DNA of 64,000 bases. Origin: Planctomycetota bacterium (GTDB lineage Bacteria; Planctomycetota; UBA1135; GCA-002686595). Positions 42,534 through 63,236 of this stretch are shown one piece after another. The stretch is taken from contig JADLBP010000048.1 of the NCBI GenBank assembly GCA_020847695.1, forward strand, positions 1 to 64,000, read 5' to 3'. The notes under the pieces are model-generated. The model was not told where the DNA came from and ran no database searches. It saw only the letters and a program-made list of their open reading frames with translations. Every line of letters begins with the position of its first letter. Position 1 is the first letter of the stretch. The position numbers and the translations under genes were made by a program.

Positions 42534-43355
42534 ATGGCTCCGTCCGCCCTCGCCCTCGCACCGGTGTTGGAGGTGTTCGCCTCGATCCAAGGCGAGGGCG
42601 CGTACGTCGGCGAGCCGCAGACGTTCTTGCGACTGCGCGGCTGTCCGCTGCGCTGCCGGTGGTGCGACACGCCGGGCTCGTGGCGCGTGCGCGAGCACGA
42701 CCGCGCGCGAGTCGGCGGCCGCGAGCTCGTCGAGCGCGACTCGGCGTGGGCTTCGCCGTTCCAAGCCGCCTGTTGGATCCGCGACGCCGAGGCCGGCGGC
42801 TTGGCGCGCACGGTCAGCGTCACCGGCGGCGAGCCGCTGCTCTGGCCCGAGTTCCTGATCGGCTTGCGTTCGATGCTCGGCGAGCGCCGACTGCACCTCG
42901 AGACCGCCGGCGCGCATCCGCGGACGCTCGCGCGCGTGCTCGACGGCTTCGATCACGTCAGCCTCGACCTGAAGCCCGCGCTCGACCTCGATCCGCCGGA
43001 GGAACTCGCGTTGCCGGACTCCGCGCCGCGCGCGGCGAGCGACGAGCCCGCGCCGCGCACGCGCGACGACTGGCGCCGTGCGCGCGAGGCGTGCCTCGAG
43101 CTCGTTCGCGAGCGCGACGCGTGCGGCAAGATCGTCGTCAGCGGCGAGCGCAGCGCGGCCGACTTCGTGCCGTTGTTCGACGAGGTCGAGCGCGTGAACC
43201 CGAAGCTCCTGGTCGTGCTGCAGCCCGCGACACCGATCGGCGGAGCGACCGCGCCGTCGCACGCGTTGCTCGAAGCGTTGCTGGACCTCGCCGCGGAGCG
43301 CGCGCTCGCGACGCGCGTCCTGCCGCAGGTGCACCGCTACTTGCGCGTGCCCTGA
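42534..43355 (+). CDS. queE: 7-carboxy-7-deazaguanine synthase (radical SAM)
   Basis: VLEVFASIQGEGAYVGEPQTFLRLRGCPLRCRWCDTPGSW (CxxxCxxC); TVSVTGGEPLLWPEF; LHLETAGAHP. Confidence 0.9.
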   Translation: MAPSALALAPVLEVFASIQGEGAYVGEPQTFLRLRGCPLRCRWCDTPGSWRVREHDRARVGGRELVERDSAWASPFQAACWIRDAEAGGLARTVSVTGGEPLLWPEFLIGLRSMLGERRLHLETAGAHPRTLARVLDGFDHVSLDLKPALDLDPPEELALPDSAPRAASDEPAPRTRDDWRRAREACLELVRERDACGKIVVSGERSAADFVPLFDEVERVNPKLLVVLQPATPIGGATAPSHALLEALLDLAAERALATRVLPQVHRYLRVP

Positions 43356-44947: not shown

Positions 44948-44953
44948 CGGGGG

Positions 44954-46516
44954 CTAGAAGCGGAAGTAGATGAAGGGGTTGTACGAGCCCGCGGCGAGTT
45001 CACACGTCGCGACCAGCAACACACCGGCCAGCGCGACGTCCGCCGCGACACGCCAGCGCGTCGGCAGCGCGCCGTCCGGCTCGCGCGCTTGCGCGAGCAG
45101 GCGTTGCGCGATCGCGCGCACCCACGGCATCGCGCCGATCGCGCCCGCGATCAGCGCGGTCCATTGCAAGCGCGCGGCGAAGCTCCCGAACGTGTGCAGC
45201 CGCGCATCGCCGTGGCCCGGCGTGAACATCGCCGCGAGATAGCCGAGCGCGCCGTCGAGCGTCTCGGCACGGAAGAAGACCCAGCCGATCATCACCGCGA
45301 GCAGCACGTACGCGTGGCGCAGCGCGCGTGGCGTGCGCTCGAGCCGCTCTCCGACCGCGGCGCGCTCGAGCACCAGGAAGAGCCCGTGGTAGAGCCCCCA
45401 GACGAGGAAGCTCCAGCTCGCGCCGTGCCACAGCCCGCAGAGCGCGAAGACGGTGACCAGGTTGAAGTACGTGCGCGCCTTGCCGCGACGATTGCCGCCG
45501 AGCGGGATGTACAGGTAGTCGCGGAACCACGTCGACAGCGAGATGTGCCAGCGCCGCCAGAACTCGGTGATCGAGCGCGCGACGTACGGGTACCTGAAGT
45601 TCTCGAGGAAGTGGAACCCGAACATGTGACCGAGTCCGATCGCCATGTCGGAGTAGCCCGAGAAGTCGAAGTAGATCTGCAGCGTGTACGCGACGATGCC
45701 GAGCCACGCGAGCGAAGGCGTCAGTTGCGAGGTCGGCACCGCGAACACGCGGTCCGCGATCTCGGCGGCGACGTTGGCGATCAGGACCTTCTTGCCGAGG
45801 CCGATCACGAAGCGCCGAATGCCGCTCGCCAAACGCGTGAGGTCGACCGAGCGCGCGTCGATCTGGTCCGCGACGTCCTGATACCGGACGATCGGTCCCG
45901 CGACGAGCTGGGGGAACAGCGCGACGTAGAGTCCGAGCGAGAGCGGGTTGCGCTGCAAGCGCGCTTCGCCGCGCGCGACGTCGAGCACGTACGAGAGCGC
46001 CTGGAACGTGAAGAACGAGATGCCGATCGGCAGGCGGATCGAGCCGGTCTCGGTGCAGAGCACCGCACGCAGCTCGGGCGACAGGCCGAGCGTGTCCGCG
46101 ACCTGCGCGAAGGGCTGAGGCGCCCAACCGCAGCCGACCGCGACGTCGCTCGCGATGCCGAGGAGCCAGTCGGAGTACTTGAACGCGACCAGCAGCGAGA
46201 GGTTGACCGCGACCGCGCTCGCGACAGGCCACGCCACGCTCGCTCCGCGCGATCGGGCCCGCGCGGCCCACAGGCCGAAGAGCCAGTTCGACGCGATCGA
46301 GACCAGCATCAGCGCGCCGAGCACTGGCTCGCCCCAACCGTAGAAGACCAGACTCGCGAGCAGCAGCCACGTGTTGCGCGCGCCGGTGCCTCGCAGCAGG
46401 AAGCACCCCGCGAGCACGATCGGCAGGAAGCGGAACAGGAAGAGCGTCGAGCTGAACAGCACGGGGTAAGTCTGCGGGCATTGTTGCGTCGTCGGCTCGG
46501 GTTGACCATGCGCCAC
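44954..46516 (-). CDS. MBOAT family O-acyltransferase (AlgI-like)
   Basis: LPIGISFFTFQALSYVLDVARGEA...GYSDMAIGLGHMFGFHFLENFRYPYVARSITEFWRRWHISLSTWFRDYLYIPLGGNRRG...GLWHGASWSFLVWGLYHG. Start may lie downstream of 46516. Confidence 0.95.
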   Translation of the reverse strand: MAHGQPEPTTQQCPQTYPVLFSSTLFLFRFLPIVLAGCFLLRGTGARNTWLLLASLVFYGWGEPVLGALMLVSIASNWLFGLWAARARSRGASVAWPVASAVAVNLSLLVAFKYSDWLLGIASDVAVGCGWAPQPFAQVADTLGLSPELRAVLCTETGSIRLPIGISFFTFQALSYVLDVARGEARLQRNPLSLGLYVALFPQLVAGPIVRYQDVADQIDARSVDLTRLASGIRRFVIGLGKKVLIANVAAEIADRVFAVPTSQLTPSLAWLGIVAYTLQIYFDFSGYSDMAIGLGHMFGFHFLENFRYPYVARSITEFWRRWHISLSTWFRDYLYIPLGGNRRGKARTYFNLVTVFALCGLWHGASWSFLVWGLYHGLFLVLERAAVGERLERTPRALRHAYVLLAVMIGWVFFRAETLDGALGYLAAMFTPGHGDARLHTFGSFAARLQWTALIAGAIGAMPWVRAIAQRLLAQAREPDGALPTRWRVAADVALAGVLLVATCELAAGSYNPFIYFRF

Positions 46517-46746: not shown

Positions 46747-48111
46747 ATGACTGAAGCTCCCGTCCAGCGCCTGCCGCGCGTCGCGATCGTCGGCCGACCC
46801 AACGTCGGCAAGTCGACGCTGCTGAACCGACTCTGCGGCAGTCGAGTCTCGATCGTCGAGCCGACCGCCGGCGTGACGCGCGACCGTGTCAGCGTCCCGT
46901 CGCGCATCCCGACGCACTGGGGCGAGCGCTGGGTCGACGTCACCGACACCGGCGGCATCGGCATCGTCGATCGCGACGACCTCGGCGAGGACGTCGAGCG
47001 CCAAGTGCGCTTCGCGGTCGAGCTCGCGGACCTCGTCCTCTTCGTCGTCGATGCGCGCGAAGGCCTGACGCCGCTCGACAAGGCGGTCGCCGATCGGCTG
47101 CGCGGGCTCCCGAAGCCGGTGCTGCTGGTCGTCAACAAGGTCGACGCCAAGGGCGTCGAGTGGGAGATCGAGAGCTTCCGACGCCTCGGCGTCGGTCAAG
47201 GTCCGTACCCGATCAGCGCGCAGGGCGGCGAGGGCGTGCGCGAGCTCTGCTTGAAGATGAGCGAGCTCTTGCCCGCCGACACCAACGACCTGCTGCCCGC
47301 GCCGCCGGCGATGAAGCTCGCGGTCGTCGGGGTGCGCAACGCCGGCAAGTCGACCCTGATCAACGCGTTCGCCGGCGAGGAGCGCATGATCGTCTCCGAG
47401 ATCCCGGGGACGACGCGCGATTCGGTCGACGTGCGCTTCGAGCGCGACGGCAAGACGTTCGTCGCGATCGACACCGCGGGCGTGCGCAAGAAGTCGAAGA
47501 TGCAGGACGCGATCGAGTTCTACTCGGACGCGCGCAGTCTGAAGGCGGTGCGCCGCGCCGACGTCGTCGTGTTGCTGTTCGACGTCTACCAACCGCTCTC
47601 GGCGCTCGACAAGAAGCTCGCGCGCTACTGCGTCGACCACTACCGGCCGGTGATCCTCGCCGCGAACAAGTGGGACCTCGTCGACGGCCAGAAGCCGCGC
47701 GAGGACTTCGTCGAGTACGTCCGCAGCGAGCTCTCGGGCATGGCGCACGCGCCGCTGCTCTTCCTCTCCGCGAAGCACAAACGCGGCGTCGGCGAGATCC
47801 TGCGGCTCGCGCAGGATCTCTGGGAGGAGAGCCAGATCCGCGTGCCGACCTCCGAGCTCAACCGCGTGCTCGAGCGCGCCGCGGAGTCGCGCTCGCCGTC
47901 CTCGCAGGGCCACCGCGTGCGCATCTACTACGCCACGCAAGTCGAGGGCACGCCGCCGACCTTCGTCGTCTTCGTCAACGACAAGGAGCTGATCAGCAAG
48001 GACTACCTTCGCTACCTGACCAACCGCTTGCGCGAGGACACGCCGTTCAAGCGCGTGCCGTTGCACATCGTGCTGCGCGATCGCGATCGGACGGACAAAG
48101 AGGACCGCTGA
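46747..48111 (+). CDS. der: Ribosome biogenesis GTPase Der (EngA)
   Basis: Two G domains: VGRPNVGKSTLLNRL and VGVRNAGKSTLINAF; DTGGIG; DTAGVRKKSK; KH-like C-terminus. Confidence 0.96.
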   Translation: MTEAPVQRLPRVAIVGRPNVGKSTLLNRLCGSRVSIVEPTAGVTRDRVSVPSRIPTHWGERWVDVTDTGGIGIVDRDDLGEDVERQVRFAVELADLVLFVVDAREGLTPLDKAVADRLRGLPKPVLLVVNKVDAKGVEWEIESFRRLGVGQGPYPISAQGGEGVRELCLKMSELLPADTNDLLPAPPAMKLAVVGVRNAGKSTLINAFAGEERMIVSEIPGTTRDSVDVRFERDGKTFVAIDTAGVRKKSKMQDAIEFYSDARSLKAVRRADVVVLLFDVYQPLSALDKKLARYCVDHYRPVILAANKWDLVDGQKPREDFVEYVRSELSGMAHAPLLFLSAKHKRGVGEILRLAQDLWEESQIRVPTSELNRVLERAAESRSPSSQGHRVRIYYATQVEGTPPTFVVFVNDKELISKDYLRYLTNRLREDTPFKRVPLHIVLRDRDRTDKEDR

Positions 48112-48718: not shown

Positions 48719-49633
48719 ATGCAAGCGACGCGTGAACGCGAGCCGGGAGAGTGGGTCGAAGCCGGGCCCGTGCGCGTCGTCGACGCGCTCGCGGCGAGCG
48801 CGCGCCTCTTCCGCACGATCGCGGAGCGGCGCGAGCTGGTGGTCGCCGGCGTGCGCCGCGACCTCGCCGCGCGGTTCTCGGGCACGCTGCTCGGGCGCCT
48901 CTGGCCGCTGCTGACGCCGCTGCTCTTGTTCGGCGTCTACTACTTCCTCTTCACGCGCATCTTCGGGTTCCGACTCGACGGCTTGCCCGAGCAGCACCGC
49001 GCCGCGCTCGGCGTCTGGATGTTCGTCGGAACCCTGGTCTGGACCGGATTCGCGGAAGGCGTGACGCGCGCGAGCACGGTGCTGGTCGAGAACGGCACGT
49101 TGATCAAGAAGCTCGCGTTCCCCGCGGAGCTGCTGCCCCTGCAGACGGTGCTCGCGAGCACGGTGACGCAACTGCTCGCGTTCGGCGTGTTCGCGCTCGT
49201 CGCGTTCGGCGCGTCGCTCTGGCCGTTCTCCGGCGCGGCATTGGTCTGGGTGCCGGCGATCCTCGTTCTGCAAGTGCTGTTCGCGTACGGGCTCGCTCTG
49301 TGCGCTTCCGCGGCGACGGTGTTCCTGCGCGACACCGCGGCGGCGCTCGGCCTGTTGTTCACGGTCTGGATGTTCGCGACGCCCGTGTTCTGGATGCCGG
49401 TGCGCGAGGTGTTGCCGACGATCGAGCGGTGGCTCCCGTGGATCGAGCGGAACCCGACGTACTCGCTCCTCTACGCGTGGCGCGCGGTGCTGATGTCGTC
49501 CGAGCCCGCGCTCGCGTTCCCGCGCTCGATCGGCGCCGAGCTCGCGGCGTTCGCGCCGTGGGCGCTCGGCGCGTTCGTCGTCGGCGCGACGTTCTTCGCG
49601 TGCGTCAAGCGGCGCTTCGCCGACGAGGTCTGA
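48719..49633 (+). CDS. ABC-2 polysaccharide export permease (Wzm/TagG-like)
   Basis: VVAGVRRDLAARFSGTLLGRLWPLLTPLLLFGVYYFLFTRIFGF...VLVENGTLIKKLAFPAELLPL...WMPVREVLP...RNPTYSLLYAWR. Confidence 0.92.
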   Translation: MQATREREPGEWVEAGPVRVVDALAASARLFRTIAERRELVVAGVRRDLAARFSGTLLGRLWPLLTPLLLFGVYYFLFTRIFGFRLDGLPEQHRAALGVWMFVGTLVWTGFAEGVTRASTVLVENGTLIKKLAFPAELLPLQTVLASTVTQLLAFGVFALVAFGASLWPFSGAALVWVPAILVLQVLFAYGLALCASAATVFLRDTAAALGLLFTVWMFATPVFWMPVREVLPTIERWLPWIERNPTYSLLYAWRAVLMSSEPALAFPRSIGAELAAFAPWALGAFVVGATFFACVKRRFADEV

Positions 49634-49639
49634 CGTGGG

Positions 49640-50860
49640 GTGGCGAGGTTTGACGTGAGCGCGGCGGCGATCGAGATCGAAGGGCTCGGCAAGGCGTACC
49701 GGCGCTACGCGAGCGGCGTCGACCGCGGGCTCGAGCTCGCGAGCTTCGGCGCCGTGCGACGCCATCGCGAGTTCTGGGCGCTGCGCGGCGTCACCGCGAC
49801 GCTCGCGCGCGGCGAGGCGTTCGGGCTCGTCGGCGGCAACGGCGCGGGCAAGTCGACCCTCTTGAAGCTGCTCGCGGGCACGACGTTCCCGAGCGAAGGC
49901 CGCTTCCGCGTCGCGGGCCGGCTCGGCGCGTTGCTCGAGCTCGGCGCGGGCTTCCACCTCGATCTCTCCGGACGCGAGAACCTGCAGCTCGCCGGCGCGC
50001 TGCTCGGGTTGAGCCGCGCCGAGCTGCGAGCGAAGGAAGGCGAGATCCTCGACTTCGCGGAGATCGGCGAGTTCGTCGACGCCCCGGTGCGCACGTACTC
50101 GACCGGGATGGCGGTGCGCTTGTCGTTCGCGCTCGCGACCGCGATCGATCCCGACGTGCTGATCATCGACGAGGTGCTCGCGGTCGGCGACTTGTACTTC
50201 CAGAAGAAGTGCATCGATCGCGTGCTCGACTTCAAGCGCCGCGGCAAGACGATCCTGCTCTGCAGTCACAGCCTCTACGACGTGCGCAACCTCTGCGAAC
50301 GCGCGCTGTGGCTCGAGCACGGCGTCGTGCGCGGGCTCGGCGATTCGGTTTCCGTCACCAACGACTACGCGACGTTCCAGCGCGAGCACTCGGACGCGTC
50401 CGAGGCGCCTTCGACGCCGCCCGCCGGGTTGCCGCGGGTGCTCGCCGCGCGCGTCGTGCGCCGCGCGGACGGCAAGGAGGTCCACGAGATCGACGCCGGC
50501 GAGGCGATCGAGGTCCGGGTCTGGTGGGAGAATCCCGAACCCGCGAAGCACGCGCTGCAGCTCGGCCTGGGCTTCCTGCGCCAGGATCGCACGCTGGTCG
50601 CCGCCGCCGCGACGCACCTCGACGGCGTGCCGGTCGATTCGCGCTCGGGTGCGGCGGTGCTCGAATTCGACGCGCTGCCGTTGCTCGCCGGACAGTTCAC
50701 GGTGCTCGTCGTGCTCTTCGACGGCGACGGCGTGCACCGGCATCACGAGTTCACGATGCACGAGCCCCTGACCATCCGCGCGCGGACCAAGGAGCTCGGC
50801 CTGGTGCGCGTGCCGCACCGCTGGCGCTTCGCACCGCTCGAAGCGCCGCCCGCGCGATGA
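49640..50860 (+). CDS. ABC polysaccharide export ATPase with Wzt-like C-terminal domain
   Basis: GNGAGKSTLLKLLAGTTFPSEGRFRVAGRLGALLELGAGFHLDLSGREN...SFALATAIDPDVLIIDEVLAVGD; C-terminal ~140-aa beta-rich domain. Confidence 0.93.
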   Translation: MARFDVSAAAIEIEGLGKAYRRYASGVDRGLELASFGAVRRHREFWALRGVTATLARGEAFGLVGGNGAGKSTLLKLLAGTTFPSEGRFRVAGRLGALLELGAGFHLDLSGRENLQLAGALLGLSRAELRAKEGEILDFAEIGEFVDAPVRTYSTGMAVRLSFALATAIDPDVLIIDEVLAVGDLYFQKKCIDRVLDFKRRGKTILLCSHSLYDVRNLCERALWLEHGVVRGLGDSVSVTNDYATFQREHSDASEAPSTPPAGLPRVLAARVVRRADGKEVHEIDAGEAIEVRVWWENPEPAKHALQLGLGFLRQDRTLVAAAATHLDGVPVDSRSGAAVLEFDALPLLAGQFTVLVVLFDGDGVHRHHEFTMHEPLTIRARTKELGLVRVPHRWRFAPLEAPPAR

Positions 50861-52071
50861 CGTTGCCGCGCCGACTCTCCGCGTTGGTCGTCAACTACGG
50901 CACGGCGCGTTTCGCGGCGGCGTGCGTCGCGTCGCTCGCGCGCGAGTGGCTCGCCGCGGGCGGCGAACGCGGCGCGCTCGAGCTCGTCGTCGTCGACAAC
51001 GCGTCGCCGAACGAGAGCGAGCGCGACCTCGCCGCGCTCGAACGCGTCGGCGCGCGGCTCGTGCGTTCGAAGGAGAACCTCGGGTACGCCCGCGGCGCGA
51101 ACCTCGCGCTCGCGCACTCGGCGGGCGAGCGCGACGACTGGATCGCGGTGCTCAACGCGGACCTCTGCTTCCTGCCGGGCTCGCTCGAGGCTCTCTTCCG
51201 TTCGCCCGCGAGTCCGCGCCTCGGCCTGTTGGCGCCGGCGTGCTACGTCGATCCCGCGTGCGAGCTCGCGTTGCCGCCGCATCGGCCACCCAGCGTCGCG
51301 AGCACGCTCGCCGAGCTCGCCGCCGAGCACTCGCCCGACGCCGCGCGGCGGCTCGCGACGCAGCGCGCGCGCTTCGCCGAGCGCGTGTGGGCCGCGCGCG
51401 ACGCCCGCCTCGAGCTGCCGTTGCTCTCCGGCGCCGCGTTGTTCGCGCCGCGGACGACGCTCGCACGCCTCGGCGGGCTCTTCGACGAGCGCTACCCGCT
51501 GTACTACGAGGACACCGATCTCGCGCGCCGCGTCCGTGCGCACGACCTCGCGTGCGAGTTCGAGCCGCGCGCGCGCATCGTGCACCACTGGGCGCGCTCG
51601 AGCGGCGTCGGCGCCGAGTTCGAGGCCGACCCGCGCGCGCGGTTCCGCGTCAGCCAACGCGCGTACTTCGAGCGCTGGCACGGTGCGTTCGCAGCGCGGG
51701 CTCTCGCGGCGCTCGACGAGGCGTCCTCGCGGCGCGCGCCGGTCGAGCGTTGTCCGCCGATCCATCCGCTGGTCGAGCTCGGGCCGTGCGCGACCGCGCC
51801 CGAGCTCGTGCTCCCGCGCGCGGGGCGGTGGGTGATCGAGCTCGCGATGACGCCGCATTTCCCGCTCGCGGCCGGCGTGCTGGTCGACGGCGAGCGTTGG
51901 CGCGCCTCGCCGCGCGCGTGGGAGTGGTTCTTCCCGGGGCGCTACTACCTGCGGGCGCTCGATCGAGGCTCGTTCGAGTGCGCGGGCGCGTGGACCTTCG
52001 ACAAGACGAGCCCCGCCCGGCAAGATCCGCTCTCGCTCGAGGAGACGGCGCGCGATCGCGGCGCGCTCTGA
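50857..52071 (+). CDS. Glycosyltransferase family 2
   Basis: SALVVNYGTARFAAACVASL...VVVDNASPNESERDL...SKENLGYARGANLALAHS...DERYPLYYEDTDLARRVRAH. Confidence 0.92.
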   Translation: MTLPRRLSALVVNYGTARFAAACVASLAREWLAAGGERGALELVVVDNASPNESERDLAALERVGARLVRSKENLGYARGANLALAHSAGERDDWIAVLNADLCFLPGSLEALFRSPASPRLGLLAPACYVDPACELALPPHRPPSVASTLAELAAEHSPDAARRLATQRARFAERVWAARDARLELPLLSGAALFAPRTTLARLGGLFDERYPLYYEDTDLARRVRAHDLACEFEPRARIVHHWARSSGVGAEFEADPRARFRVSQRAYFERWHGAFAARALAALDEASSRRAPVERCPPIHPLVELGPCATAPELVLPRAGRWVIELAMTPHFPLAAGVLVDGERWRASPRAWEWFFPGRYYLRALDRGSFECAGAWTFDKTSPARQDPLSLEETARDRGAL

Positions 52072-52078
52072 CCTCGGC

Positions 52079-52771
52079 GTGCCCACCAGGATGCCCGAGT
52101 CGAAGAATCCCGCGCAGCAGCCCGCGGCGCTCGAATTGCCGCGCGCGTCGCGCGTGCTCGCGTTCGCGCCGCACGCGGACGACGACGTGCTCGGCGCCGG
52201 CGGCGCGCTCGCGCTGCACGCGCGACGCGGCGACCGGGTGCGCGTCGTCGTCGCGTTCGACGGCAAGCTCGGGCTCGCGCCCGGAGTCGACCCGCGGGTG
52301 CGGCGCGAGGAGGCGCTCGCCGCGGGCGAGGAGCTCGGCGTCCGCGACTTCGCGTTCTGGGACTACCCGGAAGGGCACGAGCCCGCGCCATCGGAGCTCG
52401 AGCTCGCGGTCGAACGCGTCGCGCGCGAGCTCGCCGACTGCGCACCCGACGTCGTCTACGCGCCATGGAGCGGCGACGAGCACGTCGATCACCGCGTGCT
52501 CGCTCGGGTGACGCGTGCCGCGCTCGAACGCGCGCGCTTCGCCGGCCGGGCGTTCGGCTACGAGGTCTGGAGCGCGTGTCCCGCCGACGTCGTGCTCGAC
52601 GTCGGTGCGGTTTGGCCGCAGAAGCTCGCGGCGCTCGCGCGGCATCGCTCGCAGCTCGCGCGCACCGACCTCGCGGCGCTCGCGCTCGGCAACGCGCAGC
52701 GCGCGGGGCGATGGCTCGGACCCGCGCGCTTCGGCGAAGCGTTCGTCGAGACGAGGTGGGGCCCGCGATGA
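52079..52771 (+). CDS. PIG-L family de-N-acetylase
   Basis: ASRVLAFAPHADDDVLGAGGALALHARRGDRVRVVVAFDG...VYAPWSGDEHVDHRVLARV; GTG start (or ATG 52091). Confidence 0.9.
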   Translation: MPTRMPESKNPAQQPAALELPRASRVLAFAPHADDDVLGAGGALALHARRGDRVRVVVAFDGKLGLAPGVDPRVRREEALAAGEELGVRDFAFWDYPEGHEPAPSELELAVERVARELADCAPDVVYAPWSGDEHVDHRVLARVTRAALERARFAGRAFGYEVWSACPADVVLDVGAVWPQKLAALARHRSQLARTDLAALALGNAQRAGRWLGPARFGEAFVETRWGPR

Positions 52772-54000
52772 GGCTCGCGTTGGTCACGCAGCTCGATCCG
52801 AGCGAGTTCCTCGGCGGGACCGAGCTCGTCGTGCGCGCCCAACTGCGCGCGCTCGTCGAACGCGGACACGAAGTCTGGCTGGTCGCGGGCACGCAGCGGC
52901 CGAGCACCGGCGCGGCGACGGTCGAGGGCTCGCAGGACGGCATCCGCGTCGTCCGCGTGCCGCGCTTGCCGCACGAAGTGTACGACCTCGAGATCCTGCG
53001 CCCGCGGATCGCGCACCTGGTCGCCGACGCGGTGCGCGGCGCGGACGTCGTGCACGTGCACCACTGGTTCACGCTGACGTCGAACCTGGTGCGCGTGCTC
53101 GCCGCGCAGGTTCCGGTGGTCGTCTCGCTGCACGACGCGTTCGCGACGTGCCCGCGCTTCTTCCGTTGCGCACCCGAGCCCGCGATCGCCTGTCCGCCGC
53201 CCGGCGCGTTCACCGCGTGCGCGCGTTGCGTCGCGCCCGACGCCCCAGGGAACGCTCCCGCGGAGCTCGAACGTCGCCTCGCCGCGCGCGCCGCCGCGTT
53301 CACCGCCGAAGTCGCCGCCGCCGCCGCGGTGGTCGCGCCGAGCCGCGCGCACGCCGCGCTGGTCGCGCCCTACCTCGGGCTCGTGAGCCCGAGGATCCAG
53401 GTGATCCCGCACGGCCTCTGCCGCGCGCTGGTCCGCCCGGAGCGCGCGCCGGCGCGCCCGGGAGCGCCGCCGGTCGTGCTCCATTTCGGCAACCTCGGGC
53501 GGGGGAAGGGGACGCTCGACCTCGTGCGCTCGCTCGCACGGCTCGCTCCGGGCTCGATCGAGCTCCACTTGCTCGGGCCGGCGCTCGACCCCGAGCTCCA
53601 CCACGCGATCGAACGCGAGCGCGGCGCGCTCGCGATCACTCGCGGCGGCGCCTACGGCGAGCGTGAGCTCGAGGCCGCCGCGGCTCGCGCGACGCTCGCG
53701 GCGTTCCCGTCGCGGCTCGCCGAGAGCTACGGACTGGTCGTCGACGAGAGCCTGGCGCTCGGGCTGCCGACCTGGGTCTCCGACCGCGGCGCGCTCGGTG
53801 AGCGCCTGGGCGGCGCCGGCCGCATCCTGCCCGCAGAGGACGTCGCGGCCTGGACGGATGCGTTCGAGGCACTACTCTCTCGTCCCTCCATGCTCGACGC
53901 AGCCCGCCTCGCCCTGCCGAACTCCCCGCGGCGCGCCGCAGACGCCGCCGCCGAGCTCGAAGCGCTCTACCAACGCGTCGCGCGGGAGCCGCGCCGATGA
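52768..54000 (+). CDS. Glycosyltransferase family 4
   Basis: FLGGTELVVRAQLRALVERGHEVWLVAG...VVHVHHWFTLTSNLVRVL...VVSLHDAFATCPRFFRC...AAFPSRLAESYGLVVDESLALGLPTWV. Confidence 0.92.
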   Translation: MRLALVTQLDPSEFLGGTELVVRAQLRALVERGHEVWLVAGTQRPSTGAATVEGSQDGIRVVRVPRLPHEVYDLEILRPRIAHLVADAVRGADVVHVHHWFTLTSNLVRVLAAQVPVVVSLHDAFATCPRFFRCAPEPAIACPPPGAFTACARCVAPDAPGNAPAELERRLAARAAAFTAEVAAAAAVVAPSRAHAALVAPYLGLVSPRIQVIPHGLCRALVRPERAPARPGAPPVVLHFGNLGRGKGTLDLVRSLARLAPGSIELHLLGPALDPELHHAIERERGALAITRGGAYGERELEAAAARATLAAFPSRLAESYGLVVDESLALGLPTWVSDRGALGERLGGAGRILPAEDVAAWTDAFEALLSRPSMLDAARLALPNSPRRAADAAAELEALYQRVAREPRR

Positions 54001-55652
54001 CGCACGCCTTCCCGCCGCTGGTCGAGTTCGCGACGCTGAAGAAGCGCGTGCTCGTCTTCGCTCCGCACCCCGACGACGAGGTGCTCGGGCTCGGTGGCAC
54101 GCTCGCGCTGCACGCGGCGCGCGGCGACCAGGTCCGCGTCGTGATCGTCACCGACGGCGCGGCCGGCGCGCGAGAGCCCGAGCGCTCGGCGATCGCCCGG
54201 ACGCGCGCCGCGGAGTCGCGCGCGGCCGCGGCCGAGCTCGGGCTCGCCGACCTGCGTTTCCTCGGCTGCGCGGACGGCGCGCTCGGCGCCGACGCCGGCC
54301 TCTGCGCGAAGCTCGCGGCCGAGCTCGCCGAGTTCGCGCCCGAGGCGGTCTACTTGCCGTCGCCGTTCGAATACCACTCCGACCATCGCGCTCTTTCCGC
54401 CGCCGCCGCGAGCGTCGTCGCGGAGAGCGGCGCGAGCGAGGCGCTCTTCTACGGCGTCAACGTGCCGTTGCCGGCCGGGGTGCTGGTCGACGTCACCGCG
54501 GTCCGCGCGAAGAAGCGCGCCGCGTTGGAGCGCTTCGCCAGCCAGCGCGCCGTGCTCGATTTCGTCCCGCGCGCCGAGGCCGCCGACCGCGCGCGCGCGT
54601 TGAACTGCGAGCTGGCCGACGTCGAGGCGCTCGAAGGCTTCGCGCGTTGTCCTGCCCGCGCTGCACGGACCGTTCACGCGCGGCTCGCGGCGGCGACCGA
54701 GTCGCTCGAGGGGTCCGCTCTGATGGTCGCGCGCTCCGCGGTCACCGCGGTGATGACCGCGTTCAACAAGAAGGCGCCGGTGCTCGAGAACCTGCGCGCG
54801 CTCTACGCGCAGACCGTGCCGTTCGCGCGCGTGGTGGTCGTCGACAACTGCTCGAGCGACGGCACCGTCGAGGCGATCGAAGCAGAGTTCCCCGACGTGA
54901 CGCTGGTGCGCATGCCGCACTCCGCGTACGGGGCTTGCGAGACGTTCAACATCGGCTTCTCGACCGCGACGACGCCGTTGGTCGCGATCCTCGACGACGA
55001 CGTCGTGCTGCCGCCCAACTGGGTCGAGAAGATGACCGCGCGGCTCGCGCGCGAGCCCGAGACCACAGCGATCGTGTCGTGCGAGGTCGAGGAGCCCGGG
55101 ATGCCCGAGGGCTACCTCGAGCAGGAGCATCTGAAGCGCGAGCGCTACATGAGCACCTTCCGCGGGTGCGCGTCGCTCGCGCGCCTCGACGCGTTGCGGC
55201 GCGCCGGTTACTACGACGCCCGGCTCTTCATCTACGGCAACGAGCGCGACCTGACGTGTCGCCTACTCAACCTCGGCTATCGCGTGCTGCAGTACCCCGA
55301 GGTGCGCGCGCTGCACAAGACGCCCTTCGGCATCAAGATGGGCAAGCGCAGCCTCTACTACCACGCGCGCAACGCGTGGATGTCGATGCTGAAGTACGCG
55401 CCTGCCGGCGATCTCGCGCGGTTGCCGTGGCTCGTGTTCACGCGCGTCATCCTGCGCGGCGACAAGACCGAGCGCGCGGGCAAGGTCTCCGACGCGACCG
55501 GGACGATCGGCATCGGTCGCTCGCTGCGCGAGACGCCCGGCGCGTGGTGGGTGGTCGTCAAGGCCGCGTTCGGCGTGCTCGCGAACGTGCCGTACTGTTG
55601 GAAGCATCGCCAACCCTGCCGCGCACCGGATTTCGAGCTGCCGCTCAAGTGA
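53997..55652 (+). CDS. Two-domain protein: PIG-L de-N-acetylase fused to a family 2 glycosyltransferase
   Basis: N-terminus RVLVFAPHPDDEVLGLGGTLALHAARGDQVRVVIVTDG...VYLPSPFEYHSDHRALS; C-terminus VTAVMTAFNKKAPVLENLRALYAQTVPFARVVVVDNCSSDGTVEAIEAEFP...ILDDDVVLPPNWVEKM. Confidence 0.92.
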   Translation: MTHAFPPLVEFATLKKRVLVFAPHPDDEVLGLGGTLALHAARGDQVRVVIVTDGAAGAREPERSAIARTRAAESRAAAAELGLADLRFLGCADGALGADAGLCAKLAAELAEFAPEAVYLPSPFEYHSDHRALSAAAASVVAESGASEALFYGVNVPLPAGVLVDVTAVRAKKRAALERFASQRAVLDFVPRAEAADRARALNCELADVEALEGFARCPARAARTVHARLAAATESLEGSALMVARSAVTAVMTAFNKKAPVLENLRALYAQTVPFARVVVVDNCSSDGTVEAIEAEFPDVTLVRMPHSAYGACETFNIGFSTATTPLVAILDDDVVLPPNWVEKMTARLAREPETTAIVSCEVEEPGMPEGYLEQEHLKRERYMSTFRGCASLARLDALRRAGYYDARLFIYGNERDLTCRLLNLGYRVLQYPEVRALHKTPFGIKMGKRSLYYHARNAWMSMLKYAPAGDLARLPWLVFTRVILRGDKTERAGKVSDATGTIGIGRSLRETPGAWWVVVKAAFGVLANVPYCWKHRQPCRAPDFELPLK

Positions 55653-56746
55653 ACCCGGCCGACCGAGCGCCCGCCGACCCGTTCGCGCGCATCACCGCGG
55701 TCGTCGTCAACTACAACGGCGCGGAGCACCTGCCGCCGTGCCTCGAAGGCCTCGCATTGCAGGGGCCGCGCATCGATCGCGTGCTCGTCGTCGACAACGC
55801 TTCGACCGACGGCAGTCCGGCGCTGGTCGCGCAACGGTTCCCCGCGGCGACGGTGATCGAGCTCGGCGAGAACCGCGGCCCGTGTCCGGCGCGCAACGCC
55901 GGCTTGCGCGCGGCGAGCACCGAGTGGGTGCTGCTGGTCGACAACGACGCGGTGTTGACCGAGGGCGTGCTCGAGAAGCTGATCGTCGCGGCGCGTTCGC
56001 GGCCGGACGTCGCGCTCGTGCAGCCGCGCAGCGTCTTCGCGACCGAAGCGACCCGCGTGCACTACGACGGCGGCGAGCTGCACTACGTCGGACTCTTCGC
56101 GCTGCGCAACTTCTACGTGCCGCTCGCCGAAGCGCGCGGCGTCGGCACCCTCGAGGTCGGCGGCGCGGTTTCGGTCGCGCTGCTCGTCCGCCGCGAGCTC
56201 GTCCTCGCGCTCGGCGGCTTCGACGAGCGCTACTTCATCCTCTTCGAGGACCTCGACCTGTCGTTCCGGTTGCGCGCCGCCGGCCACGCGATCCTCTCGG
56301 TCGAGGACGCGCTCGTGCTGCATCGCGGCGGCACGCCGGGCATCAGCTTCCGCAAGGCGGCGAGCTACCCGCGCTCGCGCGCGTTCTTCCACTCGCGTAA
56401 CCGTTGGTACTTCCTCGACGCGAACTACCGTCGTCGCACGCTCGCGCTCGCCGCGCCGGGGCTCTTGCTGTACGAACTCGTCTGGCTCGCGTTCTGCCTC
56501 AAGGACCGGACGCTTGGCGGGTGGCTCGAAGGCAAGGTCGCGTTCCTGAAGGACGGCGCCGGCCGACGCGCGGCGCGCGAGCGCACCCGAGCGGTGCGGC
56601 GCGTCGGGGATCGCGAGCTGTTGGTCGGCGGACCTTTGACGATCGCGCCGCAGCTCTCTCGCCGTGGCTTCGCCGCGGCGGTGTTGCAGTTCCTCGACGG
56701 CGCGCTCGCGCTGTGGTGGAAGCTCGTGCGGCCGTGGATCGGCTGA
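55649..56746 (+). CDS. Glycosyltransferase family 2
   Basis: GTG start; ITAVVVNYNGAEHLPPCLEGLALQ...VLVVDNASTDGSPALV...LGENRGPCPARNAGLRAA...DERYFILFEDLDLSFRLRAAGH. Confidence 0.92.
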   Translation: MNPADRAPADPFARITAVVVNYNGAEHLPPCLEGLALQGPRIDRVLVVDNASTDGSPALVAQRFPAATVIELGENRGPCPARNAGLRAASTEWVLLVDNDAVLTEGVLEKLIVAARSRPDVALVQPRSVFATEATRVHYDGGELHYVGLFALRNFYVPLAEARGVGTLEVGGAVSVALLVRRELVLALGGFDERYFILFEDLDLSFRLRAAGHAILSVEDALVLHRGGTPGISFRKAASYPRSRAFFHSRNRWYFLDANYRRRTLALAAPGLLLYELVWLAFCLKDRTLGGWLEGKVAFLKDGAGRRAARERTRAVRRVGDRELLVGGPLTIAPQLSRRGFAAAVLQFLDGALALWWKLVRPWIG

Positions 56747-56851
56747 CGCGGCTTCGGCGGCGAACTCTCGAGTTCGCTCCGGCCGCGCTCCGAGTGCCGG
56801 ATCGGAGCGTGACGCGCCGCCTCGCGCAGAACTAGAATCAGCAGGCTCGCG

Positions 56852-58285
56852 ATGAAGGTCCTGCTCGTCGTCCACAACTTCCTGCCCAACCACGCGGCGG
56901 GCACCGAGGTCTACACCCTGCAGCTCGGGCAGGAGCTCGCGCGGCGCGGTCACGAGGTCGTGGTGTTCACCGCCGAGAAGGACATCTCGCTCGCCGATCT
57001 CTCGGTGCGCGAGCGCGAGTACGGCGGGTTGCGCGTCGTCGAGCTGATCAACAACCTGCACTACGCCGACCTGCGCGAGACGTGGGAGCAGCCGCGGATC
57101 ACCGCGATCTTCGAGAGCTGGCTCGAGCGCCTCGCGCCGGACGTCGTGCACTTCCAGCACCTCTGGTACCTCTCGGTCGGTTGCATCGAGGCGTGCGCCG
57201 CGCGCTACGTGCCGGTGATCTTCACGCTGCACGACTACTGGCTGCAGTGCGCGCGTTACGGCCAGCGCGTCCACGCCGACTCGTCGATCTGCCACACGAT
57301 CGAGTTCCGGCGCTGCGGCGAGTGTTTGGCGAGCTTCAAGTTCGCGCAATCGTCGACCGAGCGCGGGCTCGCCCGCTGGATCGCGCGCGTGCGCGGCACG
57401 ACCGGGCTCAACCTCGGACCGGCCGCGCGCGGCGCCGCGCGCCTCGCGCAAGGCTGGAAGGACGGCCGCGGCGGACCGAGCGCTGGCGATGCCTCCGCGG
57501 CCGCGCGGCGGGTCGAGCTGCTGACCGAGCGCGTCGCCGAGCGCGATCACACGTTCCGCGAGCGCATCGTGCCGAACGTGCACCGCTTCCTCTCGCCGAG
57601 CCATTTCCTGCTGCGCCGTTTCGTCGAGTGGGGCATTCCCGAGGAGCGCATCCAGTTCCTGCGCACCGGCATCGACCTCTCGCGGTTCGGCAAGGTCGAG
57701 CGCACGCGGTCGGAGAAGGTCCGCGTCGCGTTCCTCGGCACGCTCGCGCCGCACAAGGCGCCGCACCTGTTGCTCGAAGCATGGCAGCGGCTCTCTCCGG
57801 AGCTCGCGGCCAAAGCCGAGCTCGTGCTGTACGGTCCGTTCCAACACAACCACGAGTACGTCGCGGAGCTCCAGCGGCTCGCGGGCGCGGTCGGTGCGAG
57901 GCTCGCGGGCTCGCTCGCGCGCAACGACGTGCCGCGCGCGCTCTGCAGCACCGATCTGCTCGTCGTGCCGAGCGTGTGGTGGGAGAACTCGCCGCTGGTG
58001 ATCGTCGAGGGGATCGCGACGCGCACGCCGATGCTCGTCAGTGACCTCGGCGGCATGGCGGAGCTCGTGCAACCCGGACACTCGGGCTACCACTTCAAGG
58101 TCGGTGACGTCGAGGACCTCGCGCGCAAGCTCGCCGAGCTGATCGGCGATCGTTCGAAGCTCGACGCGCTGTATCGCGAACCCGAACCGATCAAGAGCGT
58201 CGCGCGCGACGCCGAGCAGATCGAGGAGATCTACTTCGAGGCGATCGACGCGCTGCGAGCCGCGCGGTTGACGGAGCGGCCGTGA
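56852..58285 (+). CDS. Glycosyltransferase family 4
   Basis: MKVLLVVHNFLPNHAAGTEVYTLQLGQELARRGHEVVVFT...VHFQHLWYLSVGCIEAC...FTLHDYWLQC...VVPSVWWENSPLVIVEGIATRTPMLVSDLGGMAELV. Confidence 0.95.
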   Translation: MKVLLVVHNFLPNHAAGTEVYTLQLGQELARRGHEVVVFTAEKDISLADLSVREREYGGLRVVELINNLHYADLRETWEQPRITAIFESWLERLAPDVVHFQHLWYLSVGCIEACAARYVPVIFTLHDYWLQCARYGQRVHADSSICHTIEFRRCGECLASFKFAQSSTERGLARWIARVRGTTGLNLGPAARGAARLAQGWKDGRGGPSAGDASAAARRVELLTERVAERDHTFRERIVPNVHRFLSPSHFLLRRFVEWGIPEERIQFLRTGIDLSRFGKVERTRSEKVRVAFLGTLAPHKAPHLLLEAWQRLSPELAAKAELVLYGPFQHNHEYVAELQRLAGAVGARLAGSLARNDVPRALCSTDLLVVPSVWWENSPLVIVEGIATRTPMLVSDLGGMAELVQPGHSGYHFKVGDVEDLARKLAELIGDRSKLDALYREPEPIKSVARDAEQIEEIYFEAIDALRAARLTERP

Positions 58286-59679
58286 GGGTCGTGCTCGTCG
58301 CGCACGGGCTGCCGCCGGAGCTCGTCGGCGGCACCGAGGGCAGCGTCGAGCGCGAGGCGACGATGCTCGCGGCGCGCGGCGACGACGTCTGCGTCGTCGC
58401 GGGCACGCTCGCGACCGCGGATTCCGAGGGTGAGCTCGTCGAGCCCCTCACCGGGCGGCGCGTGCGCGTCGTGCGGCTCGCGCGCACCGACCTGTACTCG
58501 GATCATTGGCACAAGACGCTCGCTCCGACGGTGACACGCGGCGTGCGGCGCGTGCTGCGCGAGTTCGCGCCCGACGTCGTGCACGTGCACCACTGGATCC
58601 GGTTGAGCCGCGACCTCGTGCTCGCCGCCGCGCGCGAGCGCGTGCCCGCGGTCGTCTCGTTGCACGACGCGTGGACCGGCTGTCCGATCGCGTTCCGCGT
58701 CGAGACCGCGACCCTTTCGAGCTGCGCCGCGCCGGTCGGTCCGCATCCGTGCCTCGCGTGCGCCTCGCGCGTCGGGCCGCGCACGCGTTGGGTGAAGCGC
58801 GAGCAGGAGTTCATGTTGCTCGCCGAGCGGCAGCGCGACCTCGCACGGGAGCTCGAGCTCGCGCGCGCGTTGCTCGTGCCGACCGCCGCGCACCGCGGCG
58901 AGCTCGAGCGCGTCGGCGTGCTCCGCGCAGGCGATCCGCGCGTCGGCGTGCTCGCCCCGCGGCCCGCTGCGACGGCGTCGGAACTCGGTGCCGCGAACGG
59001 TCGCACGACGACTCGGCGCGAGCCGCGCGACGAGCGGCGGCTGGTAATCGGCGTGCTCGGGCACTTGATGCCGCACAAGGGCCAGGAGCTCGTGCTCGAC
59101 GCCGTCGAGCGGCTCTCCGGTCGTGTCGACGTCGAAGTGCGCTTCGCGGGCGCGGACGCCGATCCCGGGTTCGCTCGGGCGCTGCGCGCGCGCGCGCCGG
59201 GCGACCGCGTGAGCTTCCACGGCGCCTACGAGCGTGGAGCGCTCGCCGGCCATCCCGCGTCCGACGTGCACGCCTGGGTCTTCGCGTCGCGCGCCAAGGA
59301 GTCGTTCGGTCTCGTGCTCGACGAAGCGCGCGCGCTCGGGCTCGCGACCGTGCTCGCCGATCACGGCGCGTTCGCCGAGCGCGGTCGCGAGGGCGGTGCG
59401 CTGCTCTTCGCTCCCGGCGACGCGGCGTCGCTCGCCGCCGAGCTCGAGCGCTTGGCGGTCGAGCCCGGGCTCTGGTCGCGACTCGGAGCCGAGGCGCGCG
59501 CGCTCGCCGAGGCGCGGGAGAGCGACGACGCGTGGTGCGCGCGCGTGCGGGAGACGCTGGTCGCCGCGGCCGCGCTCGGGGCGCCTCAGGTGCCCGCCGA
59601 GGAGTGGTTCGCGGCCCGGATGGCGCAGGAGTTCCTCGATTCGTGGGACCGCGGCGTGCGCGGCGGGGGACCGGCGTGA
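58282..59679 (+). CDS. Glycosyltransferase family 4
   Basis: MRVVLVAHGLPPELVGGTEGSVEREATMLAARGDDVCVVAG...VVHVHHWIRLSRDLVL...VVSLHDAWTGCP...VFASRAKESFGLVLDEARALGLATVLADHGAF. Confidence 0.92.
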   Translation: MRVVLVAHGLPPELVGGTEGSVEREATMLAARGDDVCVVAGTLATADSEGELVEPLTGRRVRVVRLARTDLYSDHWHKTLAPTVTRGVRRVLREFAPDVVHVHHWIRLSRDLVLAAARERVPAVVSLHDAWTGCPIAFRVETATLSSCAAPVGPHPCLACASRVGPRTRWVKREQEFMLLAERQRDLARELELARALLVPTAAHRGELERVGVLRAGDPRVGVLAPRPAATASELGAANGRTTTRREPRDERRLVIGVLGHLMPHKGQELVLDAVERLSGRVDVEVRFAGADADPGFARALRARAPGDRVSFHGAYERGALAGHPASDVHAWVFASRAKESFGLVLDEARALGLATVLADHGAFAERGREGGALLFAPGDAASLAAELERLAVEPGLWSRLGAEARALAEARESDDAWCARVRETLVAAAALGAPQVPAEEWFAARMAQEFLDSWDRGVRGGGPA

Positions 59680-60578
59680 GGCGCTCGGCGTGGCTCTTGG
59701 TCCTCGCGTGTGCGGGCTGCGGCGCGCCGCGGACGTCCACCGCCGACGCGGAGTCGCTGGTCGCGGTGGAGCGCCTGCCCGCGGAGCGCCGCGCGCTGCT
59801 CTCGGCGTACGGACGCGGCGGCGCCGATTGGGAGGCCGCGCGCGAGCAAGCGCTGCGCGATCCCGCCGCGACCCGTTTCCTGGTCGAGAACCTGCTGCTC
59901 GAGATGATGCGCTCGTACGACGCGTTCGCCGCGCGGACCGACGAGCGCGCTCGCGCCGCGTTCCTGCGCGCGGAGACCGAGCTCGCGCGCTTCGGCGCGG
60001 CCGCCGCGGCGCCGCTCGTCGAACTGCTGTGCGTCGGCGACGGCATCGTCGCGGACCTCGCGACCAAGTCGCTCGTGCGGATCGGTCGGGAGGCCGTGGC
60101 GTCCGCCGAGCCCGCGCTCGAACACACCGAGCCCAAGGCCCGCCGCCGAGTCGCCGCATTGTTCGCTGTGCTGCCGCACGCGGGCGAGCGCGAGCCCGCG
60201 GTGCGCGAGGCGCTGCGCCGGCGGGCGCTCGGCGACCCCGAGTGGATCGTGCGGGCCGAGGCGGCGCTCGCGCTCGGCGCGCGCGGCTCCCGGGACGTCG
60301 AAACCGCTCCGTGGCGCCTGATCCTCGAGCGGGCGCTGGTCGACGACGATCCTGCGGTCCGTCGGTCGGCCGCGGAGGGGCTTTTCCGTTTGGGCGATCC
60401 GCGCGCGATCCCGGCGCTCGCCAACGCGATGGCGCGCGCGGTGACCGAGGGCGAAGTCAAGCTGCTCGCGGTCATCGAGTCGGCGCTCGCCGAACTCGCA
60501 GGCGACCGACGCTCGCGGACTCCGCAAGCGTGGCTCGACTGGTGGCGCGATCACCGCGGCGAGTTCTCGAACCGCTGA
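59676..60578 (+). CDS. HEAT-repeat lipoprotein
   Basis: GTG start VRRSAWLLVLACAGCGAP; DPEWIVRAEAALALGARG and DDPAVRRSAAEGLFRLGDPRAIPALANAMA repeats. Confidence 0.83.
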   Translation: MRRSAWLLVLACAGCGAPRTSTADAESLVAVERLPAERRALLSAYGRGGADWEAAREQALRDPAATRFLVENLLLEMMRSYDAFAARTDERARAAFLRAETELARFGAAAAAPLVELLCVGDGIVADLATKSLVRIGREAVASAEPALEHTEPKARRRVAALFAVLPHAGEREPAVREALRRRALGDPEWIVRAEAALALGARGSRDVETAPWRLILERALVDDDPAVRRSAAEGLFRLGDPRAIPALANAMARAVTEGEVKLLAVIESALAELAGDRRSRTPQAWLDWWRDHRGEFSNR

Positions 60579-61754: not shown

Positions 61755-62231
61755 ATGTGGCTCGGTGAGTCCACCCACACCCTGGACAACAAGAACCGCG
61801 TGTTCTTGCCCAAGCGTCTCCAGGACGGGCTCGAGAGGGGGCCGGAAGGCAACCTGACGGCGATCCTGACGCGCGGCTTCGAGGGGTGCTTGTTCCTGTT
61901 CTCGACCGTCGGCTTCCAGGCCGTGCTCGAGCGGTTGAACACCCAGGCTTTCGAAGGCGCCGACGCGCGCCTGATGCAGCGGCTCTTCTTCTCGAGCTCC
62001 AACTCGCTCGAGCTCGATTCGGCCGGGCGCCTGCTCGTGCCGGAGAAGCTCAAGACGTTGGTCGGCATCGACAAGGAAGTGGTGATGGTCGGCGTGATCG
62101 ATCGCATCGAGATCTGGCCCGCGGAAGCGTGGCGCCAGCTCGAGGCGAAGCACGGCAACGACTTCGATCGGTTGGATCGTGTGATCTGCGGCGACAACCC
62201 GCGCGCTTCCGCGCGCGTCGAAGGGACCTGA
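61755..62231 (+). CDS. mraZ: Transcriptional regulator / division cluster protein MraZ
   Basis: ESTHTLDNKNRVFLPKRLQDGL...ILTRGFEGCLFLFS...SSSNSLELDSAGRLLVPEKLKTLVGIDKEVVMVGVIDRIEIWPAEAW. Confidence 0.95.
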   Translation: MWLGESTHTLDNKNRVFLPKRLQDGLERGPEGNLTAILTRGFEGCLFLFSTVGFQAVLERLNTQAFEGADARLMQRLFFSSSNSLELDSAGRLLVPEKLKTLVGIDKEVVMVGVIDRIEIWPAEAWRQLEAKHGNDFDRLDRVICGDNPRASARVEGT

Positions 62232-62243
62232 CGGGGTTCTCGC

Positions 62244-63236
62244 TTGCGGACCAGGGGGAAGGTGGAGGTGATCTTGATCGGGCGCGAACGCGGCGGCGAC
62301 GACCAAACGCGAGTGCACGTTTCCGTGCTCGCGGACGAGGTCGTGTCCGTGTTCGCCGCGGCCGATGCTCCGCGCGACGGTTGGATCGTCGATGGCACCG
62401 TCGGTGTCGGCGGTCACGCGAGTCGCATCCTCGATGCGTGTCCGAGTCTGCGCGTGCTCGGCATCGATCAAGATCCGGAGATCCTGCCGATCGCGCAGCG
62501 GAACCTCGCTCGGTTCGGCGAGAGAGCACGCGTCCGTCGCGGTCGCGTGTCGATGTTGGACGAGCTGCTCGACGAGGAAGGCATCGAGCGCGTCGTCGGT
62601 TGGATGCTCGACCTCGGTGCGTCGTCGTTGCAGTTCGACCGGCGTGAGCGCGGCTTCTCGTTCTCGGTCGACGGGCCGCTCGACATGCGCATGGATCCGG
62701 ACCGCGAGCGCACCGCGGCGGACATCGTCAACACTTGGGACGAGAACGACCTCGCGGATCTCTTCTTCCACGAAGGCGGCGAGACGCGCTCGCGCAAAGT
62801 CGCTCACGCGATCGTCGAGTTGCGCCGCAGGGCTCCGTTCCGCCGCACGTTGGCGTTGGCCGACGTGGTCGCTCGCGCGATCGGACGCGGGGGCGCGGGG
62901 GACATCCACCCGGCGACGCGCGTCTTCCAGGCGTTGCGACGCGCGGTCAACGAGGAGGGCGAGGAGCTCGTGCGCGGCCTCGAGCAAGCTCAACGCTGGC
63001 TCGTCGACGGCGGCCGTCTGGTCGTGATCTCCTTCCACTCCGGCGAGGACGGCGTGGTCAAGCGCTTCCTCTCGCGTGGCGAGGACGAAGGCGCCTTCCG
63101 TCCTTTGACCAAGAAGCCCCTGCGGCCGAGCTCGCTCGAAGCGCGCGCGAACCCGCGCTCGCGCTCGGCGCTGCTGCGCGCCGCCGCTCGCGTGCGCAAC
63201 CGTGCGTCCGGGGCCGGGCCCGAGGTGAAGCCGTGA
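62244..63236 (+). CDS. rsmH: 16S rRNA (cytosine(1402)-N(4))-methyltransferase
   Basis: HVSVLADEVV...IVDGTVGVGGHASRIL...GIDQDPEIL...DLGASSLQFDRRERGFSF...DMRMDP...VVISFHSGEDGVVKRF. The true start may be slightly internal. Confidence 0.95.
   Translation: MRTRGKVEVILIGRERGGDDQTRVHVSVLADEVVSVFAAADAPRDGWIVDGTVGVGGHASRILDACPSLRVLGIDQDPEILPIAQRNLARFGERARVRRGRVSMLDELLDEEGIERVVGWMLDLGASSLQFDRRERGFSFSVDGPLDMRMDPDRERTAADIVNTWDENDLADLFFHEGGETRSRKVAHAIVELRRRAPFRRTLALADVVARAIGRGGAGDIHPATRVFQALRRAVNEEGEELVRGLEQAQRWLVDGGRLVVISFHSGEDGVVKRFLSRGEDEGAFRPLTKKPLRPSSLEARANPRSRSALLRAAARVRNRASGAGPEVKP

Follow-up and report, generated by a model that had tools for sequence, protein, structure and literature searches.

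Transporters of the Wzm/Wzt type, which belong to the ATP-binding cassette (ABC) class, export lipid-linked glycans, and the loci for ABC-exported glycans usually vary from strain to strain; the sugars of the lipopolysaccharide (LPS) core, on the other hand, are normally flipped by MsbA. PIG-L enzymes de-N-acetylate hexosamines, and GNAT N-acyltransferases acylate amines. In the Nod-factor pathway, the work is divided among the family 2 glycosyltransferase (GT2) NodC, the deacetylase NodB, the N-acyltransferase NodA, the methyltransferase NodS and the ABC exporter NodIJ. The order of its backbone steps is stated to be NodC, NodB, NodA (PMC5080398). In Pseudomonas, PA5002 (DnpA, a PIG-L protein) and PA5003 (a GNAT) are adjacent genes in an LPS-core cluster (PMC8005017), and a deacetylation ahead of galactosamine (GalN) alanylation has been suggested (PMC10579960). 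Here we analyse a stretch of 64,000 nucleotides from a Planctomycetota bacterium, referred to below as the window, which carries ten genes on the + strand (48719-60578) in the order Wzm-Wzt-GT2a-PIG-L1-GT4a-PIG-L2~GT2b-GT2c-GT4b-GT4c-HEAT, where PIG-L2~GT2b is a fusion. The exporter of this locus is lost, in relatives, together with PIG-L1, the PIG-L2 active site and a distant pair of GNAT genes, and we propose with moderate confidence that the locus as a whole is explained by an exchange of N-acyl groups on the exported glycan.

The joint loss can be recognized in 16 genomes of the window's family, which keep der and GT2b-GT2c and have no orthologue of Wzm, Wzt, PIG-L1 or GT4a at the locus; of GT2a there is a single weak match among them (L156). 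Incompleteness of these metagenome-assembled genomes (MAGs) is ruled out as the cause, as der, GT2b and GT2c lie on the same contig. An orthologous Wzt, which is 47-83% identical in exporter-bearing genomes, was not found genome-wide in the ten exporter-less genomes searched, where the only matches were paralogues of 38-45% identity. In the exporter-less loci the N-terminal part of the GT2b protein is at most a PIG-L remnant that lacks the motif (L149, L151, L158); otherwise it can no longer be recognised or has almost disappeared (L164). As an example, in L158 CVATSAADA stands in place of the PIG-L2 catalytic motif. Overall, PIG-L2 is intact in 28 of the 28 exporter-bearing loci that could be read and in none of the 16 exporter-less ones (Fisher p = 2.6e-11); one further exporter-bearing locus (L169), whose contig ends before PIG-L2, was left unread. 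The PIG-L1 motifs are likewise intact in the exporter-bearing loci, including three that the first pattern had missed. GT2b itself is equally conserved with and without the exporter (67% and 68%, respectively). A tree of Der and GT2b places 7 changes in the exporter, no fewer than 5 of them on supported branches; such branches also yield five independent pairs, and in all 5 the state of PIG-L2 follows the exporter. Because the outgroups have the exporter, these changes are best read as losses. Since their active sites are intact with the exporter and lost without it, the PIG-Ls are tied to export, while GT2b-GT2c must also serve something that outlasts the loss of the export branch.

The same pattern extends to genes outside the locus. 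In other families and classes, some of the loci hold a gene near PIG-L1 that matches PF13527 (Acetyltransf_9, GNAT), and when it was used as the query in a first round, GNAT homologues, often in tandem, were detected in 10 of 10 exporter-bearing and 0 of 5 exporter-less genomes of the window's family. A second round with the copy of the window's genome as the query, at slightly different search thresholds, brought the totals to 27 of 27 and 1 of 16 (p = 1.6e-10 when the window's genome is not counted). In the window's genome the GNAT N-acyltransferases form a tandem pair (G000:C58:44711-46725; L219:8711-10824), unlinked to the locus, between a GDPD gene and NfeD1b-FloA; in two exporter-less genomes (G005, G045) GDPD and NfeD-FloA are directly adjacent with no GNAT between them, so that MAG incompleteness is ruled out for these two. 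Several members score above the PF13527 cut-off; of the two copies in the window's genome, one reaches 23.2 bits (cut-off 25) and the other has no match. The exporter, GT2a, PIG-L1, GT4a, the PIG-L2 active site and the GNAT pair are thus lost jointly. In a genome of another family (f2) a PIG-L gene stands directly beside a GNAT gene, away from the main locus (L230:6544-8245). As a separate observation, in one family of another class a gene for an NhaA-type Na+/H+ antiporter (PF06965) is inserted beside the GNAT gene or genes (L208 and L209, about 13.1-14.6 kb; L207, 17.9-19.1 kb).

Outside the phylum, 70 loci were chosen by their similarity to the PIG-Ls or the fusion. A Wzt match of more than 200 bits is found in 43 of these, a GNAT in 53 and both in 41, and in 22 of the 70 the GNAT is within 300 bp of the PIG-L open reading frame; several of the GNATs in proteobacterial relatives are fused to a methyltransferase. 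In a profile comparison the planctomycete GNATs and those of other phyla are homologous over their full length (hhalign E 8e-57), and the pair of the window's genome shares with the PIG-L-linked GNATs of other phyla a C-terminal motif that ends in DxDL/F. The structural model of one GNAT from another phylum matches Eis-type double GNATs and N-myristoyltransferases. The presence of one PIG-L in such export loci is common, since a PIG-L or a PIG-L~GT2 fusion beside Wzm/Wzt is widespread among the related loci recovered here, and only the conserved pair is distinctive: an initial annotation, made from the sequence of the window, had called two deacetylases in one export operon unusual, which does not hold for a PIG-L in such operons in general. 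In the open-licence literature we found no paper on PIG-Ls in Wzm/Wzt loci.

Judged by sequence, both deacetylases are true members of the PIG-L family, with scores of 84.8 (PIG-L1, 230 aa, 52079-52771, +) and 100 bits (PIG-L2) against a curated PF02585 cut-off of 28.2. The HxDD(E/D) and HxDH residues are retained in APHADDD (52166-52186, +) and EHVDH (52478-52492, +) of PIG-L1 and in APHPDDE (54060-54080, +) and YHSDH (HSDH at 54375-54386, +) of PIG-L2. They align to solved deacetylases, EHVDH to 1uan/2ixd/6p2t and HSDH to 8bgn; APHADDD is intact in all exporter-bearing relatives, whereas APHPDDE is replaced or deleted, and HSDH missing, in the exporter-less ones. The nearest solved relatives of PIG-L1 are TT1542, BC1534, BshB1 and diacetylchitobiose deacetylase. 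The fusion (551 aa, 53997-55652, +) has PF02585 at residues 19-140 and PF00535 (78.8 bits) at residues 251-378. In its AlphaFold2 model (predicted local distance difference test, pLDDT, 84.5) the PIG-L2 half matches diacetylchitobiose deacetylase (PDB 8bgo) and the GT2b half matches the GT-A enzymes PcManGT and WrtF (PDB); with a predicted template modelling score (pTM) of 0.64, the relative placement of the two halves is not trusted.

The search of planctomycete gene neighbourhoods that the initial annotation had proposed shows the core order recurring well beyond the window. Most of the window's family has the full ten-gene order and, where both borders are visible, it is flanked by der and a small unknown gene on one side and by mraZ-mraW on the other. 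Five other families of the order share Wzm-Wzt-GT2a-(extra GT2)-PIG-L1-GT4a-PIG-L2-GT2b-GT2c, whole or in part, and the core order recurs, again whole or in part, in families of other classes; outside the window's family PIG-L2 is mostly unfused, and in most cases der cannot be seen next to the locus. This conserved order in dozens of genomes excludes chance clustering. Insertions seen in relatives (3-oxoacyl-ACP synthase III, two-component kinases, an Fe-S/FAD oxidoreductase and a phosphonate-binding protein) are lineage-specific and not widely shared, and were not considered further. The GT2b domain (54729-55652, +), the most conserved part of the locus, has a median identity of 67% within the family (Der, 62%) and of 53% elsewhere; planctomycetes of other families and classes show 47-61%. 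In a phylum-wide sample a GT2b match (E<=1e-20), mostly of at least 47% identity, occurs in 50 of 294 genomes, and the gene is therefore old but not universal.

These results can be brought together as follows. The locus would make a lipid-linked surface glycan that is exported through the Wzm/Wzt transporter. On the cytoplasmic side, N-acetylated amino sugar residues would be added by GT4a, possibly with GT2b, and their N-acetyl groups would be removed by PIG-L1 and by the PIG-L2 domain of the fusion; the exposed amines, on one or two amino sugars, would then probably be given a different acyl group by the two unlinked GNATs, before export or as part of it. GT2b-GT2c-GT4b would belong to a more deeply retained step, which continues when the export branch is lost. 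The lipid carrier would be started by a phosphoglycosyltransferase encoded elsewhere, presumably one of the three PF02397 enzymes of the genome, and the product may be attached to lipid A-core, which the LpxC and WaaL-type proteins of the genome make a possible anchor. While the sugars, the re-acylation, the lipid carrier and the attachment are what we infer from the genes, the retention and loss of the GNAT pair with the PIG-Ls, and the position of GNATs beside PIG-Ls in other phyla, point to re-acylation: the PIG-Ls and GNATs act with the ABC exporter and probably replace one N-acyl group on an amino sugar by another.

Several observations weigh against this proposal. Only five phylogenetically independent pairs are firm, and the sign test on these alone gives p = 0.0625. 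One exporter-less genome (G006) retains the GNAT pair between its flanking genes, and in G023, a fragmented MAG with a full-length PIG-L2~GT2b whose exporter status was not read, the GNAT was not found. In the window's family the GNATs lie outside the operon, and in family f2 PIG-L1 is missing at the main locus. The occurrence of a GNAT in 41 of 43 Wzt-bearing loci of other phyla is a biased rate from a query-selected set, so that the association, and not the rate, is the result. Finally, the glycan of all these genomes is a prediction from genes, and the GNATs could acylate some other substrate.

The best surviving alternative is an exported glycan whose amines have been left free and positively charged by the PIG-Ls, and to which the GNATs are unrelated. 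It shares with N-acyl exchange a place for the PIG-Ls in the export branch, and the operon of the window's family, which has no GNAT, agrees with it, but it leaves aside both the unlinked GNAT pair that is kept and lost with the PIG-Ls and the proximity of GNATs to PIG-Ls that recurs in other phyla. We consider it unlikely, and the free amines that the initial annotation had expected in the exported glycan are not supported in that form; nor was anything found in support of the holdfast role it had mentioned.

According to a second alternative the locus builds the lipid A-core oligosaccharide, with the PIG-L and GNAT enzymes giving a core hexosamine its aminoacyl or acyl group, in the way proposed for Pseudomonas, and with Wzm/Wzt exporting a short cap. 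LpxC occurs in 20 of 20 genomes tested, and the survival of GT2b-GT2c where the exporter is gone would fit a core step; against this, no heptose or Kdo transferase is among the Pfam/NCBIfam matches of the cluster genes, and the flipping of core sugars is by established knowledge a task of MsbA and not of Wzm/Wzt. A core cluster with adjacent PIG-L (PA5002) and GNAT (PA5003) genes (PMC8005017) and the suggested N-deacetylation before GalN alanylation (PMC10579960) add weight to a reading that we nevertheless regard as rather improbable. The least credible alternative, a small-molecule pathway in which PIG-L1/PIG-L2 and GT4a make a bacillithiol- or mycothiol-like glucosaminide, recalls the GT4 and PIG-L pairing of BshA/BshB and MshA/MshB, and BshB1 is indeed the best NCBIfam match, yet it was rejected because the scores (69.7 and 67.6 bits against an equivalog cut-off of 182.5 for BshB1; 22.7 and 30.5 against 224 for MshB) are far too low, PIG-L2 forms a fusion with a GT2 and the loss of the exporter takes both PIG-Ls with it.

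N-acyl exchange remains our preferred explanation. The source genome of the window comprises 5.59 Mb in 390 contigs, of which the window is contig 48; statements on the whole genome rest on searches, and domains of the cluster genes were assigned with Pfam and NCBIfam profiles. By gene content this is an ABC-dependent glycan locus, as initially annotated. It encodes an ABC-2 permease (Wzm-like, 304 aa, 48719-49633, +; PF01061, ABC2_membrane, 55.5 bits), which precedes Wzt in relatives too, and a cognate ATPase (Wzt-like, 406 aa, 49640-50860, +; PF00005, ABC_tran). The nearest PDB relatives of the ATPase are TarH (7e-64) and Wzt (6amx/8dku), and its C-terminal match to Wzt_C is weak and stays below the cut-off (23.9 bits, E 4.4e-5, cut-off 30.4). 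The profile matches of the cluster genes include no Wzx, Wzy or phosphoglycosyltransferase, in agreement with the initial annotation; three PF02397 phosphoglycosyltransferases, one LpxC and several Wzy_C/WaaL-type proteins are encoded elsewhere in the genome. A second Wzm-Wzt pair (G000:C137:5328-6542; L211), retained in 18 of 20 family genomes tested, was set aside, as no glycosyltransferase cluster was recognised beside it and it is common to exporter-less genomes.

The remaining genes, all on the + strand, are GT2a (50857-52071; PF00535, 53 bits), GT4a (52768-54000; PF13439/PF13692), which lies between both PIG-L genes in most relatives, GT2c (55649-56746; PF00535, 86.7 bits), GT4b (56852-58285; PF00534/PF13439), GT4c (58282-59679; PF13692/PF00534) and a HEAT-repeat lipoprotein (59676-60578; PF13646, 54.4 bits) with a lipobox-like N-terminus, LVLACAGCG; the HEAT gene is retained in many exporter-less loci. 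Coordinates and profiles bear out the ten co-directional genes and the families first assigned to them. The junctions measure 6, -4, 7, -4, -4, -4, 105, -4 and -4 bp in gene order, that is, 4-bp overlaps at six of nine and gaps of 6-7 bp at two; the close spacing initially described holds for these eight and fails at the 105-bp gap between GT2c and GT4b. The conserved borders are der (EngA GTPase, 46747-48111, +; Pfam) on the left and mraZ-mraW (61755-63236, +; PF02381, PF01795), the start of the dcw cluster, on the right. An MBOAT O-acyltransferase and an ALGX-like SGNH protein, an alginate-type O-acetylation pair (43337-46516, -), are transcribed away from der, and such a pair is also near der in several exporter-less relatives. 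A search of the window with Rfam gave no matches.

Little is known of the surface glycans of this phylum, in which the locus retains the order of its core genes from family to family and from class to class. Repeated joint loss makes a single testable pathway of the deacetylases, the exporter and the distant pair of acyltransferases. Neighbourhood and joint loss place the PIG-Ls with glycan export and not in a separate small-molecule pathway, and both keep all metal-binding and catalytic residues; their initial assignment as deacetylases stands. Our results also suggest what PIG-L and GNAT genes may do where they occur together, as they do in many glycan clusters; the so far unexplained DnpA of Pseudomonas may be one such case. 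We put forward more tentatively, as an extension that may well not hold, that PIG-Ls and a distinct family of double-domain GNATs constitute a module, not described before, that generally exchanges N-acyl groups on ABC-exported glycans of several phyla and is an ancestral surface trait in Planctomycetota; the acyl group brought in may have a long chain, so that Wzt would read a lipidated or otherwise specially N-acylated glycan as an export tag.

In comparison with described systems, the locus resembles Wzm/Wzt O-antigen and TarGH wall-polymer export in its permease, its ATPase with a C-terminal extension, its GT2/GT4 array and an initiating phosphoglycosyltransferase encoded elsewhere; it differs in the paired PIG-Ls, in the PIG-L~GT2 fusion and, these loci being usually variable, in a core order common to families and classes, with a pre-dcw position in the window's family. 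PA5002/PA5003 of Pseudomonas offer a comparable combination, a PIG-L and a GNAT gene side by side in an LPS glycan cluster (PMC8005017; PMC10579960), the GNATs being likened by gene class; the Pseudomonas core cluster, as given in the available text of these sources, has no Wzm/Wzt pair and one PIG-L, which is unfused. The PIG-L~GT2 fusions of Nitrosomonas, Desulfobacteraceae and others (L040, L049, L058) have the same domain order, a nearby exporter and the same GNAT family, and differ in their identity of about 30%, a usually single PIG-L and a GNAT that is often fused to a methyltransferase. The logic of the pathway is Nod-like, with a GT2, a de-N-acetylase, an N-acyltransferase and an ABC-2 exporter, to which proteobacterial relatives add a GNAT-fused methyltransferase. 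The NCBIfam matches of the cluster genes include no NodA or NodB model, and NodC reaches 21.5 bits against 550. Because the deacetylase is a PIG-L and the acyltransferase a PF13527-like GNAT, the locus is not a member of the Nod-factor system, from which it also differs in having several glycosyltransferases and probably a bound polymer in place of a secreted signal.

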